Shown here piece after piece: positions 9,685-31,032 of a stretch of 32,554 bases of DNA. The notes beneath the pieces are model-generated. The model did not search any database, was not told the origin of the DNA, and was given only the letters and a program-made list of their open reading frames with translations. Both the position numbers and the translations under genes were made by a program. Numbering within the stretch: position 1 is the first letter of the stretch; each line of letters begins with the position of its first letter. Location: the NCBI GenBank assembly GCA_947585915.1, contig CANPXJ010000008.1, forward strand, positions 1 to 32,554, read 5' to 3'. This stretch comes from an uncultured Bacilli bacterium. GTDB lineage: Bacteria; Bacillota_I; Bacilli_A; RF39; UBA660.

Positions 9685-12597
9685 TTATTTTCTTTTCTTT
9701 AATGACCAAAAACAATCTTGAAAGGCATATGAAATGTCTTCATCAATCCCGAATGATTGACTTTGTATTTTTTTTAATTGCTGTGAAAGTTTAATTCTTT
9801 CTGCTTCATCTTCTTTTGATTGATGCCAATAATATTGCATAGCACTATCGTTATCTAGCTCTAAATCTTCATGAATTAAGCGTAAATCATCAATAGTAAT
9901 GTTTATAGCCCGAAGTTGATTTTCAATATTTGATATATTCTCATAATTGTCATAATATAAATATAAATCATGTTCATTACTAATTCTTTTTTTTATTTCA
10001 TCATATAGTACTTTAGTTTTTATATCTTTGATTGTTTTTGACTTTTCAGAATATTGAGACTTATTAAATAATTCATAATCAAAATTTACGAAATTATGAG
10101 AAGTTAAAAAACAAAAATATCTTTCTAAAATAAATATTTCGACCTTTTTAACATATTTTTCAAATTCAAAATAATAGTTTTCAAATTTATTATTACTATA
10201 ATCGCCTAATAATAATAGTTCTAAAAGTTCATTATATTCCTTATCTTCCTCTTTAAATGGTGTTTTTTTCTCTATAAATGTTAATGCCAAAGATTCTTGA
10301 CCATGCAAATCAAAAACATAATTTCTTTTAAATTTATAAGCAGAGCTAAAATTATATTGCTCATAAAAAATGTCGTTATCAGGAGTATTTATTATAAAGT
10401 TAGAGTAATAATCAGGGTCTAAATTGAGATATATTCGATCAATAAAAGACAAATCAATATTTTTATCAAAATAAATAATTTTTTTAATTTTTAATGCAGT
10501 TTCTGGATTATCACATATAATATTTAAATAAAAACCATATTTTTTAGTATCTGAATTATATTCGCCTATTTTTCTTTCATAAAATTGAGGAAGTAGAACA
10601 AATAATTTATTTATTTCTTCATCTTTTAAAGTTGAAGGAATAGTTAAAGTTAGTCTAGAACACGTACTTGGTGGAAATGTAATAACTTCCTTAGTGGTAT
10701 TATAGTATCTTCCGTTGTGAGAGCGGACTCTAAATGCAGGAATTTTATTTAAATCAATATTCGTAATTCCAGGCATAATCATTAATAAAGAATAATCTTC
10801 AAAATGGTTAAAACTTGTTCTAAACCAGTAAGGGTTTTTTAAAATATATCCCCAACATGTATTCAAAGTTTTTATATCTAATAAAGCTTTAGTTGGGTTT
10901 AATGAAGCAAACTCGTAATATTCTTTTTGCTTTTCTAAACTCTTGATTTGTCTTAATAAATCTATACCTTTTCTAAAATCATTATTAGTATACTCTAAAG
11001 ATAGTATAGGATGATATTTTAATAAATTGTGAGCTCCTCTAGGAAAAAAACCATCTTTGCCAAAATCAAACTTTATAGCTCTATTTATATATTCAAAATT
11101 CATTTCAGTTTTACCCTTCCATTTTGATTTTAAATCAAATGGACACCACCATTCACCCGTTGTGGTATCAAACTCTATGTAGTTATTAGGATTACTATCT
11201 TTAAGATAACTTGCAAAGCCTAAAGGATTATTCAAATCAAAGTTTAAAGCGACATCTAAAAATTTATCATATAATTCTTTAGAAGGTAATGCAATATTTT
11301 TTAATTGCTCTATGAAATTTTCTATCAATTCGTTAGCATTATCACTATTTTTTGATCCTGCCCATTTACTAATTTCAAATAATTCCTCAATATCTATATT
11401 TAAATTTTTCAATTCTTTTAAGTATTCTACAACTATGTCTTTATATTCGGTTAGATAAGAAATTTCATATTTATAATAAGCTAGAAGTCTTATCATATTT
11501 TCCTTTGGATAATCATAAGGTTCAAAAGCATATCTATCTTCTTTAAAAAAATTATTGTCTTTTTGATATTCTTCCTTTAATTTTTCTATTAATTCAACTT
11601 TATCAGTGTAGTAATCCTGCCAGTAGTGATAATCTTTGCTAGTGAGTATCATAAAATGTGTATCATCAAGAAATAAATCATTATTAAATTTGTTAAAATA
11701 TCCATCAGATTTTTGATTTAAAAAATCCATAAATAATTTAACATTGGCAATATAACCTTTAGCTTCTTCTTTATTTTCGTCAAATTTAGAAGCTAGATAA
11801 AATATAATAATTATTCTAAAAAAATAATTGATATTTTGTTTGAGTAATAATTTATATTTTACTTTTGTACTTTCCAAATGTCTTGCATTTTTAAATAGAA
11901 GAGTAGACCATACTTGATTTAATTTCATGTTTAATTGATTTACAAATTCTTCATAACTTTTATAATTTTTAGGGTCAATTCCTAAAATATGCGTTTTTTT
12001 AGCTACAGCTTTTTCTTTTTTTGCTTGTAGTTTATCCAAATGCGCTTTTTGTTCTAAAATTACTTTATTTATTTTGGCAATTTCTGCAGATATTTTCTGA
12101 ATAACTTTTTGTAATGATATATAATTTGAATTATTAATTATTGAGGGGATTATATCTTTTACTTTTGAATCGATAACCGAAATGGTGAGAAAATTGGCAA
12201 ACATAATATTTACATCATTAATATTAATAAGCTGTTTTAATGATTTAACAATTATATTAGCCAAATCATGGGTAAAAAGGGGAATATCCATTTTGTTAAA
12301 AACATTTATAGTGGGCAGACTAGTAATTAAAACCACATTTGAACTTTTAATATATTCAAAGTCTAATTGACCATTTAAATTAAATTCTTTTAAAATAAAA
12401 TTATCATTATTTATTAAAGAACTTTTAATATCAAATATTTTAAATATTACTTTATCATTAATATTTTTATCATAACTTTTATAATCGCTTTTTAAATAGT
12501 AACCATTATTTATTTGCTTTTCTAATTCTCTTAACAATAAATCAATATAAGTATAATTAGGATTACTTAAATATAATCTATTTCTTTTGAAACCCAT
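9685..12597 (-). CDS. Large protein of unknown function (970 residues)
   Basis: I do not recognise this protein. It is hydrophilic and Asn/Lys/Tyr-rich, with no signal peptide, so probably cytoplasmic. A likely coiled coil with many Lys/Glu/Ala residues lies at about 165-200 (ISAEIAKINKV through KKEKAVAKK). A short hydrophobic stretch near 258-268 (FFRIIIIFYLA) looks like a buried helix. No Walker A, nuclease, methylase or protease motif is visible; less usual blocks are TGEWWCPFDLKSKWKG near the middle and VFDLHGQESLALTF in the last third. It has its own promoter with a palindrome, an SD (AAGGGTGG) and a terminator. It sits alone on the minus strand between queA and tgt, genes normally adjacent, so it looks like an insertion. 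A single-gene defence or regulatory role is possible but unsupported by any motif. Confidence 0.85.
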   Translation of the reverse strand: MGFKRNRLYLSNPNYTYIDLLLRELEKQINNGYYLKSDYKSYDKNINDKVIFKIFDIKSSLINNDNFILKEFNLNGQLDFEYIKSSNVVLITSLPTINVFNKMDIPLFTHDLANIIVKSLKQLININDVNIMFANFLTISVIDSKVKDIIPSIINNSNYISLQKVIQKISAEIAKINKVILEQKAHLDKLQAKKEKAVAKKTHILGIDPKNYKSYEEFVNQLNMKLNQVWSTLLFKNARHLESTKVKYKLLLKQNINYFFRIIIIFYLASKFDENKEEAKGYIANVKLFMDFLNQKSDGYFNKFNNDLFLDDTHFMILTSKDYHYWQDYYTDKVELIEKLKEEYQKDNNFFKEDRYAFEPYDYPKENMIRLLAYYKYEISYLTEYKDIVVEYLKELKNLNIDIEELFEISKWAGSKNSDNANELIENFIEQLKNIALPSKELYDKFLDVALNFDLNNPLGFASYLKDSNPNNYIEFDTTTGEWWCPFDLKSKWKGKTEMNFEYINRAIKFDFGKDGFFPRGAHNLLKYHPILSLEYTNNDFRKGIDLLRQIKSLEKQKEYYEFASLNPTKALLDIKTLNTCWGYILKNPYWFRTSFNHFEDYSLLMIMPGITNIDLNKIPAFRVRSHNGRYYNTTKEVITFPPSTCSRLTLTIPSTLKDEEINKLFVLLPQFYERKIGEYNSDTKKYGFYLNIICDNPETALKIKKIIYFDKNIDLSFIDRIYLNLDPDYYSNFIINTPDNDIFYEQYNFSSAYKFKRNYVFDLHGQESLALTFIEKKTPFKEEDKEYNELLELLLLGDYSNNKFENYYFEFEKYVKKVEIFILERYFCFLTSHNFVNFDYELFNKSQYSEKSKTIKDIKTKVLYDEIKKRISNEHDLYLYYDNYENISNIENQLRAINITIDDLRLIHEDLELDNDSAMQYYWHQSKEDEAERIKLSQQLKKIQSQSFGIDEDISYAFQDCFWSLKKRK

Positions 12598-16038: not shown

Positions 16039-16662
16039 ATGGACATGGAAATCTTTGGAGATTTAGAACAAGTTTTAAACGAAATTACTTTTAATATATT
16101 AATAGTAAAAAACAATTATGGAGATAAACAAGTAATTGCATTATTTGAAAAAAATATTTTAAAAGTTAAAAATCCAAAATTATGTTGTTGGTTTGCTCAA
16201 AATGTTAAAGGAGCAGATATCAAAGCTCATGAACAAGTTGTTTTAGATAGTAAAAAACCAAAGTTGAGTTATTATTTTGCTCGAGATGTCAAAGGTGCCG
16301 ATATAAAAGCCCATGAAAAAGTAGTTTTAGAAAGCAAGGATACATACTTAAAATATTTATTTGCTCGAGATGTTAAAGATGCAGATATTAAATTACATGA
16401 ACAAGCCATTTTAAATAGTAAAAATCAAAAGTTGAGTTATTACTTTGCTCGATATGTTGAAGGAGCCGATATTTTTGCACATAGAGATATAGTAATTAAT
16501 GGTGATATAGAATACTGGAAAGAAGAATTTGAAAAGTTTTTAAATGAAAGATGTATTAAACAAATTGATGATACTAATCAAAAAATACTTTCTTTAGAAT
16601 CAAGTAATAACAGCTCAATTTTAAAAGAGCAAATATTGGAGCTTACGAATGAGTATTTTTGA
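16039..16662 (+). CDS. 28-residue tandem-repeat protein
   Basis: This 207-residue soluble protein contains four tandem 28-residue units at about 45-156 with the core YYFARDVKGADIKAHEKVVL. Each unit is predicted to form a helix pair, so the middle should be a small solenoid. Similar 'FA-D-VKGADI-A-E' repeats are, as far as I recall, common in gut Firmicutes and their phages without known function. The N-terminus (about 1-44) is a non-repetitive helical cap, and the C-terminus (about 160-207) is a probable coiled coil. There is no signal peptide. SD TAGGGAGG precedes the ATG at 16039; a second in-frame ATG two codons on is possible. It has its own promoter and terminator. Probably a protein-interaction scaffold. 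Confidence 0.8.
   Translation: MDMEIFGDLEQVLNEITFNILIVKNNYGDKQVIALFEKNILKVKNPKLCCWFAQNVKGADIKAHEQVVLDSKKPKLSYYFARDVKGADIKAHEKVVLESKDTYLKYLFARDVKDADIKLHEQAILNSKNQKLSYYFARYVEGADIFAHRDIVINGDIEYWKEEFEKFLNERCIKQIDDTNQKILSLESSNNSSILKEQILELTNEYF
16171..16506 (+). repeat. Four 84-bp tandem coding repeats
   Basis: Four in-frame 84-bp units encode the 28-residue repeats. Units two and four are closest in their first half (AAGTTGAGTTATTA and TTTGCTCGA recur). Third-position differences show the copies have been diverging under selection for the protein. Confidence 0.8.
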
Positions 16663-23331: not shown

Positions 23332-24204
23332 ATGATAGAAAAATATATTGATTATTTAAAATATGAAAAAAAATTAAGTGATAATACCTTAAAATCATAT
23401 CAAAATGATTTAGATATTTTTAGTAGTTATTTTAAAAATAAAGATTTAACAAAGTTAAATGCTACTGATATTCATAATTTTATTAGTAAAAAAAGTAATG
23501 CTAAATCTAGTACAACTATTGCTCATAATATTACGGTCATAAACTCATTTTATACTTTTTTACTTGAAGAAAAATTAATTAAAACAAATCCATGTGAAAA
23601 TATAGTTTCGCCCAAAAAAGCTTTAAAATTACCTAATTTTTTAACCGAAGAAGAAGTAGATAAACTTCTAGATATTTCTTTAAATAGTGCTTATGATTAT
23701 CGAAATAAGGCCATGTTAGAACTTTTATATGCCACTGGTATTCGAGTGAGTGAACTCATAAATTTGAAGTTTATTAATTTAGATTTAGAAAATGATTTTA
23801 TTAGAGTTTTTGGTAAAGGAAGTAAAGAACGATTAGTTCCCATTAGTGATGTTGCTAAAGATTGGATAATAAAATATATTAATGAATATCGCGGAGAGCT
23901 ATTAAAGGGGAAAAATAGTGATTATTTATTTATAAATAATTTAGGAAATGGAATATCACGAGTAGGATTTTTTAAAATAATTAAAAAAGTATGTGAAGAG
24001 AAGGGAATTAATAAAAATGTCAGTCCTCATATTCTAAGACATTCTTTTGCAACCCATTTACTGGCTCATGGTGCTGATTTACGTGTTATTCAAGAAATGC
24101 TTGGGCATAGTGATATTTCTACTACCCAAATATATGCTCATTTAGTTAATGAAAAATTAAAAAAAGACTACGAAGAATACCATCCTCGCAGTCATAAAAT
24201 TTAG
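23332..24204 (+). CDS. xerD: Tyrosine recombinase XerD-type
   Basis: A 290-residue site-specific recombinase that with a partner resolves chromosome dimers at dif. The N-terminal SAM-like DNA-binding domain (1-90, YLKYEKKLSDNTLKSYQNDL) is followed by a catalytic domain with the full set R138, K162, H233, R236, H259 and nucleophile Y268 (QIYAHL), so it should be active. Length and the HILRHSFATHLLAHGADLRVIQEMLGH-type block are those of housekeeping XerC/XerD, not of mobile-element integrases. XerD is favoured over XerC by general similarity only. SD ATGGTGAA precedes the ATG. In Bacillus xerD (ripX) lies close to spoIIM, and a spoIIM-like gene is 6 kb away here. Confidence 0.9.
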   Translation: MIEKYIDYLKYEKKLSDNTLKSYQNDLDIFSSYFKNKDLTKLNATDIHNFISKKSNAKSSTTIAHNITVINSFYTFLLEEKLIKTNPCENIVSPKKALKLPNFLTEEEVDKLLDISLNSAYDYRNKAMLELLYATGIRVSELINLKFINLDLENDFIRVFGKGSKERLVPISDVAKDWIIKYINEYRGELLKGKNSDYLFINNLGNGISRVGFFKIIKKVCEEKGINKNVSPHILRHSFATHLLAHGADLRVIQEMLGHSDISTTQIYAHLVNEKLKKDYEEYHPRSHKI

Positions 24205-24223
24205 GAAAATTAAATCGTTTCCT
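24203..24223. terminator. Weak hairpin between xerD and the convergent small gene
   Basis: AGGAAA (24203-24208) pairs with TTTCCT (24218-24223). The following T content is poor on either strand, so termination would be inefficient. Confidence 0.4.
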
Positions 24224-24227
24224 ATTT

Positions 24228-24386
24228 CTAACGAGCGCTGTTACGAGCTGAGTTAGAATTTTTAGCACTATTGTTAGCATTATTACGGGCGCTACAATTT
24301 CTAGCACTATTTTGGTTTTTAGCACTGTTACGAGCACTATTTCTAGCACTGTTTTTAGCACTATTATTATTTCTTGCATTACTCAT
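24228..24386 (-). CDS. 52-residue Asn-Ser-Ala-Arg/Lys repeat protein
   Basis: A small gene, easily missed by length cut-offs. The protein is built almost entirely from N, S, A, R and K in imperfect four-residue repeats NSAR/NSAK (17 Asn, 11 Ser, 11 Ala, 10 basic, no acidic residues, one Cys, one Gln, one Met). It is therefore strongly basic and probably disordered or helical only when bound. Evidence that it is a real gene: a consensus SD GGGAGGTAAG spaced 4 nt from the ATG, a clean stop, and repeat structure kept in one frame. It lies convergent to xerD. The composition suggests nucleic-acid binding or an SASP-like DNA-coating role, which is inference; I do not know a named family. The opposite-frame ORF over this stretch is a shadow. 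Confidence 0.75.
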   Translation of the reverse strand: MSNARNNNSAKNSARNSARNSAKNQNSARNCSARNNANNSAKNSNSARNSAR

Positions 24387-24721
24387 ATTACTTACCTCCC
24401 ACTATTAGTATGGCAAAAAAAGGGGAGGTTATGTAAATTAATTTATGGTAAATGTTGTCAAAAATATTGTAATAATCAATAATGTTAATATTAGTACATA
24501 TTCTTTACAACAATTTGAAGCAAAAATAGTTAAATTAATAATATTTTAATCTTTCTTTAATATTTACTAATTATATTAGTAGTGTAAGAAGGTGATATAT
24601 GGTTAAAAGTTAAATTACAACATTAAATAATATTGGTTAACAGAAAGGTAGGTATTGATAAAATCTAAATTAGAATAATTTATTTTGATAATAATTAAAT
24701 AAATTAATGAGGTGATAATAA
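24387..24721. other. Intergenic region with two tiny ORFs
   Basis: This 335-nt stretch holds the SD of the small basic-protein gene and a TTGACA (24461-24456) on the minus strand without a convincing -10. On the plus strand are two very short ORFs with good SDs: MVKS at 24599-24613 (after AGAAGGTGAT) and a TTG-started MIKSKLE at 24655-24678 (after AAAGGTAGGT). Either could be a leader peptide for the HtrA gene or a chance occurrence. I see no structured RNA. Confidence 0.4.
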
Positions 24722-25966
24722 ATGTCTAAAGATATAAAGAAAAATAAAGAAATTAAAAAAACAAAACAAGAAGATGAAAAGAAAGTTAAGCAATTAATCA
24801 ATAAAAATAATAAAAATGCTATTATTATTGCTATAGTAGTCGTAGCCGTCTTAATTGTTATTGCTTTTGCATTTATCGTATTTCATGTTCTTTATCCTAA
24901 AATTAACTCTTATTTACAAAATATTTCTAAAGAAAAAATAGAATTAAAATATACTAAAACAGCTACTACTAAAAATGATGGTATATATATTACTGATGTT
25001 TCTCAAGTTGTCGAAAATGTAATGCCTTCTATCGTTGCCATTACTAGCAAAACCTTAATTTCTTCTGGACAATTTGGGCCTAGCTTTTTTAAAGAAGAAC
25101 AATATGCAGAAGGAGCAGGATCAGGTATCATTATTAGTAAATCAGATGATGAACTAATGATTTTAACTAATAATCATGTTGTTGAAAATGTTAGTGAGTT
25201 GGCTGTTCAATTTATAAATGAAAAAAGTTTTGATGCCAAAATTGTCGGAACATCTAAAAGAAAAGACATAGCCGTTATAGCTGTTTCCTTAAATGATATC
25301 GATAGTGATACTTTAAAAGAAATAAAAATAGCAACTATGGGTGATTCAAATAAACTAAAAGTAGGTAATGGCATTATTGCCATTGGAAATGCTTTAGGTT
25401 ATGGTCAATCAGTAACTACGGGTGTAGTTAGTGCGTTAAATAGGGAAGTTACTATAGATAATTACACGAATAAAATGATTCAATTAGATGCAGCTATTAA
25501 TGGAGGAAATAGTGGGGGAGCATTGCTTAATAGTAATGGCGAAGTTATCGGTGTAAATTCAGCAAAATACTCATCAAATGCTTTAAATTCTTCGGCAAGT
25601 ATTGAGGGAATGGGATTTGCTATTCCAATATCAGATATTAGCGACCTTATTACCGATCTTATGAATGGTAAAAATGATGAAGAAGTAACTTTAGGTATTG
25701 AAGGGTATTTAATTCAAGAAGAAAATAACTATAATTTACCTTCAGGATTTTATATTTCTAAAATCATTTCCGGAAGTAATGCAGATAAATCTGAGTTAGA
25801 AATTGGCAATATTATCACTAAAATAAATGGTAATAAGATAACTGATTTAAGTGATATACAAAGTGTTTTAAATAAATCAAATAAAGGAGACACTTTAAAT
25901 TTAACAATAAGTTATATAAGTGGTCGCGAATATAAAGAAAAAGATATTACCATCAATTTATCTTAA
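24722..25966 (+). CDS. htrA: HtrA/DegP-type membrane-anchored serine protease
   Basis: A 414-residue surface quality-control protease. A Lys-rich cytoplasmic tail (1-31) precedes one membrane helix (about 32-57). The trypsin-like domain (about 90-310) has the catalytic triad H152 (TNNHVV), D182 (KRKDIAVIAV) and S264 (GGNSGGAL). A single PDZ domain (about 320-410: GFYISKIISGSNADKSELEIGN) follows. This is the architecture of Bacillus HtrA/HtrB/YyxA, which degrade misfolded secreted proteins and can affect competence. SD GAGGTGATAATAA precedes the ATG. The 335-nt leader region upstream may carry regulation, but no known operator is visible. It ends at a clear terminator. Confidence 0.93.
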   Translation: MSKDIKKNKEIKKTKQEDEKKVKQLINKNNKNAIIIAIVVVAVLIVIAFAFIVFHVLYPKINSYLQNISKEKIELKYTKTATTKNDGIYITDVSQVVENVMPSIVAITSKTLISSGQFGPSFFKEEQYAEGAGSGIIISKSDDELMILTNNHVVENVSELAVQFINEKSFDAKIVGTSKRKDIAVIAVSLNDIDSDTLKEIKIATMGDSNKLKVGNGIIAIGNALGYGQSVTTGVVSALNREVTIDNYTNKMIQLDAAINGGNSGGALLNSNGEVIGVNSAKYSSNALNSSASIEGMGFAIPISDISDLITDLMNGKNDEEVTLGIEGYLIQEENNYNLPSGFYISKIISGSNADKSELEIGNIITKINGNKITDLSDIQSVLNKSNKGDTLNLTISYISGREYKEKDITINLS

Positions 25967-30377: not shown

Positions 30378-30959
30378 TTAAAGCAAAAATAAGAATAATT
30401 TTAATATTTTATTAGCAAAGAAATATACTAAGGTATCATATATTAAAATACCCAAAACTACGACACCTAATTTTAAAAATAAGTTTTTAAGTAATTTGTA
30501 TAAAGAATCGTTTTCTTTAAATATTAAAACTCTTAAGAGTCTTTTGGTTATTTTAAGAGCAATATAACTTATATATAATAAACATAAAATAAATAATAAT
30601 TTAGAAATTATTGTAAAAATAACACCAAAGAATAAACCTTTTACTTTAAAAGAATTGTATAAAGCTCCGATAAAAAAACCAATACTTGTACATTCATAAA
30701 ATAAATAAAATAAGATAAATGGTAAACCGATTATTGAATAAGATAAAAAGACTAAAATAATAATTATAATTAAATGTTCAATAATCATATTTTGATGAGT
30801 AGTTTTAATAATATTTTCTAGACCACTTAATTTTTCAGCAATTAAGGTTTTATTAGCAGTATTTTGAATATTAAAATAAAATAAACCAAAAATTATACCA
30901 GTTACTACTAAAGTTAATAAAAAAATTTTTGCTACATTGCTTGACTTTAATCTTTTCAT
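30378..30959 (-). CDS. SpoIIM-like (DUF95) membrane protein
   Basis: The 193-residue polytopic protein has four or five membrane helices. Two stretches closely resemble B. subtilis SpoIIM: the N-terminal helix (LLTLVVTGIIFGLFYFN) and the middle GLPFILFYLFYECTSIGFFIGA followed by a Phe/Gly-rich helix and SYIALKITKRLL. In spore formers SpoIIM works with SpoIID and SpoIIP in engulfment, but homologues occur in non-sporulating bacteria with unknown roles. No other sporulation gene is seen here, so sporulation should not be inferred. I chose the ATG at 30959, placed after AGGTGAAAAAT, over GTG at 30968. It is divergent from the 31-residue membrane peptide gene. Confidence 0.65.
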   Translation of the reverse strand: MKRLKSSNVAKIFLLTLVVTGIIFGLFYFNIQNTANKTLIAEKLSGLENIIKTTHQNMIIEHLIIIIILVFLSYSIIGLPFILFYLFYECTSIGFFIGALYNSFKVKGLFFGVIFTIISKLLFILCLLYISYIALKITKRLLRVLIFKENDSLYKLLKNLFLKLGVVVLGILIYDTLVYFFANKILKLFLFLL

Positions 30960-31032
30960 ATTTTTCACCTAATTAAATATATTTACAATGTAATAAAAAT
31001 ATGATAAATTTATTTTGTTGAGGTGAAAAATA

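Follow-up and report, generated by a model that had tools for sequence, protein, structure and literature searches.

A conserved N/S/A/R/K-repeat protein with a sigma-G/F-type promoter as a candidate spore nucleoid protein in Bacilli without detected alpha/beta SASPs

Is a 52-residue protein made almost entirely of NSAR-type repeats the product of a real gene in an uncultured member of the Bacilli, and if so, what would it do there? The window analyzed here is the whole stretch of 32,554 nucleotides, and the open reading frame (ORF) is located at positions 24228-24386, stop codon included. It was confirmed at the predicted position and lies on the minus strand, the strand having been left unstated before. 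Its translation is MSNARNNNSAKNSARNSARNSAKNQNSARNCSARNNANNSAKNSNSARNSAR, in which N, S, A, R and K form 94% of the 52 residues while the remainder consists of one M, one Q and one C. The protein contains no acidic residue, has a net charge of +10 and is 32% asparagine; it is of low complexity and has no hydrophobic core. The extreme composition noted in the original prediction was upheld when compared with chance, as the N+S+A+R+K fraction of ORFs of at least 40 aa in 60 first-order Markov windows of the same composition reached a maximum of 0.56, against 0.94 in this ORF. A longer ORF of 77 aa (24146-24379, minus strand) overlaps the gene and had been considered meaningless. In relatives its frame (the +1 frame) is closed by a stop in 41 of 46 homologues, and the remaining four alternative frames contain stops in 46, 31, 32 and 45 of the 46.

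The Shine-Dalgarno sequence GGGAGG (24395-24400, minus strand) is a good site located 8 nt upstream of the ATG, and a GGAGGT-type Shine-Dalgarno sequence is aligned in the homologues. On the same strand an intrinsic terminator with an 11-bp stem, a 6-nt loop and a T run (24166-24193; folding z = -3.35) falls within the 3'-terminal part of xerD (23332-24204, plus strand), the convergent neighbor, which serves as the locus marker in relatives. The divergent neighbor encodes an HtrA-like trypsin/PDZ protease (24722-25966, plus strand) and provides context only, as it adjoins the gene in some relatives and not in all. Genes for a macro domain protein and zip complete the neighborhood, and the basic gene is single-copy in the window's genome. 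The 52-aa protein had no match at E <= 10 in Pfam and likewise none in NCBIfam, and an Rfam scan of the window gave no match. AlphaFold, run on the single sequence, returned one long helix with a mean pLDDT of 80 and a pTM of 0.44, and such models of repeat peptides are weak evidence. Two other proteins in the window were observed to be without an assigned family: a 207-aa protein (16039-16662, plus strand) with about four tandem repeats of about 30 residues (..FARDVKGADIKAHE..) and no Pfam match, and a 970-aa protein (9685-12597, minus strand) with nothing in Pfam at E <= 1e-4.

Homologues were searched for through the neighboring xerD gene because low complexity defeats tblastn; a peptide-pattern scan of genome contigs with the 52-aa protein gave no confirmed relative. 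The xerD neighborhoods of 75 named metagenome-assembled genomes (uncultured Bacilli, Erysipelotrichaceae, Tenericutes and Candidatus Coprovivens) were scanned by composition, and a comparable small ORF was found in about 40 of them, on the strand opposite xerD and either directly adjoining it or one or two genes off. Some of these calls are based on a flank of 3-4 kb, so a relocated gene would be missed. The same ORF adjoins xerD in two congeneric genomes, and further ones came from anonymous relatives; the 46 basic members analyzed represent about 46 genomes of uncultured RF39-like Bacilli, in which the gene is at or near xerD. A profile built from 31 members recovered only three genomes, probably owing to low complexity again, and the promoter pattern together with synteny worked better. 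The only matches of the 31 members were chance ones, to DUF7155 in Pfam (E 0.26) and to EntC in NCBIfam (E 0.67).

The 46 members are 28-52 aa long with almost no hydrophobic residues, and exactly one cysteine is present in 27 of them and none in 14. Length and residue order drift among the members while the composition stays, which is not independent evidence as the members were picked by composition; charge, spacing and promoter played no part in the choice. The net charge was observed to be +8.5 (sd 1.3), and K/R residues lie four apart in 42% of the gaps, whereas shuffles give 10.8% with a maximum of 15.5%. That charge and spacing are both conserved although hydrophobic residues are lacking speaks for a polyanion as the partner of the protein. 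The original prediction had proposed a search for homologues in related genomes; they are present, with reading frames kept and no frameshifts. The pooled pN/pS of 0.27 over 11 pairs indicates purifying selection, and we conclude from these comparisons that the NSAR-repeat ORF is a real conserved gene.

The region just upstream of the Shine-Dalgarno sequence is also conserved. A sigma-G/F-type promoter has the consensus GNATA, a spacer of 17 nt and CATNNTA. In the window, the -10 element CATACTA (24406-24412, minus strand) is found 5 nt before the Shine-Dalgarno sequence and the -35 element ACATA (24430-24434, minus strand) is 17 nt from the -10 element. This -35 element departs from GNATA at the first base, and GNATA is found in most close relatives. 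Alignment of 41 loci gave the box TG(A/T)AT(A/T)A ... (C/A)ATAATA at a fixed distance just 5' of the Shine-Dalgarno sequence, where conservation in the -10 columns is 88-98%, apart from the first base, which is C in 61% and A in 32%. In Clostridioides difficile the sigma-G and sigma-F boxes closely resemble each other and those of Bacillus subtilis, and the sigma-G regulon includes SASP and spoVAC genes (PMC3789822). Our promoter assignment takes sigma-G and sigma-F together.

The strict form of GNATA-N17-CATNNTA, written GNAT-N-CATNNTA, was found before 18 of 41 basic-protein genes and 12 of 40 alpha/beta-SASP genes, and before none of 179 controls, which were other genes with a Shine-Dalgarno sequence in the same loci (Fisher p 2e-15 and 3e-10, respectively, with kinship ignored). 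A fixed promoter-plus-Shine-Dalgarno pattern, with one mismatch allowed, matched the basic gene in eight of nine congeneric genomes, and its other matches include spoVAC and two alpha/beta-SASP genes. In 60 genomes this pattern had 27 matches, some of them inside unrelated genes, compared to 4 for the reversed-pattern control. The basic gene is preceded by a conserved promoter-like box of sigma-G/F type, in a form shared with SASP genes. A sigma-K -10 element (CATANNNTA) was also considered and does not match the aligned columns. We noticed that in the Coprovivens-like group (L004-L007, L011, L012 and L014) A is often the first base of the -10 element (AATAATA) and that CCATAAATA or a similar sequence stands in the -35 region, which suggests a shifted sigma-factor preference.

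Sporulation has been predicted for the order RF39 (PMC10868615). The host genome encodes SpoIVA (E 9.7e-109) and a SigG-like sigma factor (E 9.0e-97, 322.6 bits), the latter scoring under the equivalog cut-off of 457, a value that was not reached in any of the 60 genomes. PF09579 (Spore_YtfJ) was not found in the host genome, and as a single marker it decides little. The window also contains a SpoIIM-family membrane protein (30378-30968, minus strand) whose score of 28.6 bits is barely above the Pfam cut-off of 26.9; it fits a sporulating host.

PF00269, the alpha/beta SASP family, was undetected in all nine genomes of the window's genus, whereas 21 of the 28 other genera sampled in the family have it. 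Metagenome-assembled genomes are incomplete and absence from a single one is weak evidence, but an absence concordant across nine congeneric genomes is not. Among 50 named genomes, PF00269 was found in none of the 36 that encode the basic protein. The two SASP-positive genomes among them with a related ORF carry the least basic versions, one with an acidic tail (L055) and one with a net charge of +3 (L068); this split between basic and less basic forms was made after the fact. Over 88 genomes, 48 have the basic protein without a SASP, 33 a SASP without the basic protein, seven neither and none both (Fisher p 1e-17, kinship ignored). The xerD tree reduces the pattern to one large clade and two smaller cases, or about three independent origins, for which an independent-pairs test is powerless. 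Replacement of alpha/beta SASPs by the basic protein is therefore suggestive and not proven. The seven genomes with neither protein near xerD imply that neither is strictly needed, unless the gene has moved or the genome is non-sporulating. In four close relatives (L019, L022, L028 and L030) PF00269 is absent from the genome and the basic protein is absent within about 3 kb of xerD; the basic gene may have moved or been lost there.

The GPR protease was observed in two main forms. Most SASP-positive relatives have the full-length protein (about 300-470 bits), whereas SASP-less genomes, those of the window's genus included, have one of about 245 aa (76-141 bits, profile positions 20-232) or none that was detected; a few genomes are intermediate. 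The short form (G000:C60:7771-8367, L151, with relatives L152-L155, L158, L159 and L162) is still a GPR equivalog, with 168 bits against a cut-off of 120. It is without a C-terminal stretch of about 100 residues but keeps the motifs LGN...D.LGP and I.ID.L when aligned with solved GPR structures, and these motifs presumably hold the catalytic Asp pair. An assignment of the short form to YyaC (DUF1256) was rejected, as it matches GPR itself and not DUF1256. The GPR cleavage site in C. difficile SASPs is EIA (PMC8452069). No E[IFLV]A site was found in any of the 46 basic members, and the short GPR would therefore have another substrate or another use.

Longer Asn-rich small proteins are encoded at a comparable locus in SASP-positive genomes (L055:5589-5831, L132, L133 and L138; G010, G021 and G024). 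They often have an acidic C-terminal tail, for example SFELDEDSDHSFQLRDCK, and a lower net charge; several are preceded by a sigma-G-like box, and none of them scores above a family cut-off in Pfam or NCBIfam. Because these tailed, less basic relatives coexist with SASPs in some genomes, the role of the ancestral protein was not just to replace SASPs. Plausibly, the acidic tail of an ancient forespore protein disappeared and the protein stepped in once the SASPs had been lost.

We favor, with modest confidence, the reading that the basic protein is a SASP-like, protamine-style nucleoid protein of the forespore which took over from the lost alpha/beta SASPs in the host's lineage. Forespore expression, location in the core, DNA binding and functional replacement are inferred. 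The gene would be transcribed in the forespore late in sporulation from the sigma-G-type promoter with a very short leader. The protein would most likely accumulate in the spore core and coat or condense the spore DNA through its protamine-like basic repeat rather than a SASP fold, and it appears to have assumed the function of the alpha/beta SASPs. The basic, regularly spaced charges are consistent with DNA coating. The SASP-like candidate of the original prediction stands in so far as the promoter, the sporulation background and the exclusivity with alpha/beta SASPs and full-length GPR point to it, while homology to a known SASP family was not found. Nothing was found in favor of its antimicrobial candidate: a leader and nearby export or immunity genes are absent, the 46 members have almost no hydrophobic residues and the promoter is of forespore type.

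The main rival, which we consider unlikely, is a forespore reserve of amino acids and nitrogen for outgrowth, similar to the gamma-type SASP SspE and without DNA binding. The promoter evidence applies to it equally, and a low-complexity protein rich in nitrogen through its Asn and Arg, without a hydrophobic core and with a composition that outlasts drift in length and order, would suit such a store. However, a reserve would not need the tightly held net charge and four-residue K/R spacing, a short single-copy protein is a poor store, and the basic form is found just where the DNA-binding SASPs are missing. We give a lower probability to a structural protein of the forespore or spore that is placed in the inner membrane, in the cortex or, as an adhesive, in the coat and not in the nucleoid, or to an RNA/ribosome binder of the dormant spore. 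Coat proteins are mostly mother-cell products and the promoter fits sigma-G/F over sigma-E/K; the single cysteine of many members could cross-link, but it is missing from 14 of the 46. A putative small CotF-like ORF without a profile match, which the fixed promoter pattern picked up in a single genome (L119), is in favor of a structural role.

If the protein were instead vegetative, small and basic, associated for example with the nucleoid or the ribosome and read from an ordinary sigma-A promoter (-10 CATAAT), the sporulation link would be a matter of chance. The sequence CATAATAATA does include a near-consensus sigma-A -10 element, and the choice of sigma factor cannot be proven from sequence alone. 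This reading is nevertheless very improbable, as a sigma-70 scan found the region no richer in sites than shuffles, SASP genes have this box too, with CATTCTA, and none of the 179 neighboring genes has it, the matches of the fixed pattern include spoVAC and SASP genes, and the distribution tracks SASP and GPR. Hardly any weight is left for a non-coding repeat tract whose frame is open by chance: its extreme composition and few codons in use would allow this, but the pN/pS ratio, the closed other frames, the conserved ATG, Shine-Dalgarno sequence and promoter, and the terminator all argue for a gene.

Alpha/beta SASPs have been described as universal among endospore-formers, and our literature searches found no alternative to SASP for this bacterial group. 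We tentatively propose, with rather less than even confidence, that predicted spore-formers of a large clade have given these proteins up and package their spore DNA with a protamine-like N/S/A/R repeat protein that is unrelated to them, GPR having been shortened or lost. If this is true, spore DNA protection would have been reinvented in uncultured gut bacteria, by a forespore-type gene in predicted sporulators without SASPs, and genome-based sporulation predictions would miss this basic gene, which escapes annotation through its shortness and low complexity. The gene offers a one-gene, directly testable candidate for DNA protection in SASP-less spores.

The basic protein resembles the alpha/beta SASPs (SspA-SspD, SspF) in being small, in its sigma-G-type promoter of the same form just 5' of the Shine-Dalgarno sequence, in the sporulation background and in its proposed role on spore DNA. 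It differs from them in having no sequence similarity (a PF00269 match in 0 of 31 members), no EIA site for GPR, strongly basic N/S/A/R/K repeats and host genomes without PF00269. In Bacillus, the gamma-type and minor SASPs (SspE, SspH-SspP and Tlp) are short, low-complexity and forespore-expressed. Their distribution is narrow (PMC3533761). The basic protein is likewise short, of low complexity and narrow in distribution and is encoded by a putative forespore gene, but their Pfam and NCBIfam models match none of the 31 members at E <= 1, and the repeat pattern and extreme net charge are not features of these SASPs. The tailed Asn-rich relatives (G010, G021, G024 and L055) are also located downstream of xerD on the opposite strand with an Asn-rich N-terminal part, whereas they are longer, often acidic-tailed, less charged and coexist with alpha/beta SASPs. 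Protamines and other arginine-rich DNA-condensing proteins provide an analogy only, being very basic, repeat-like, without a hydrophobic core and proposed to package dormant DNA. The protein described here is bacterial, with Arg/Lys at about one residue in four spaced by N, S and A, and common ancestry with protamines is not suggested.
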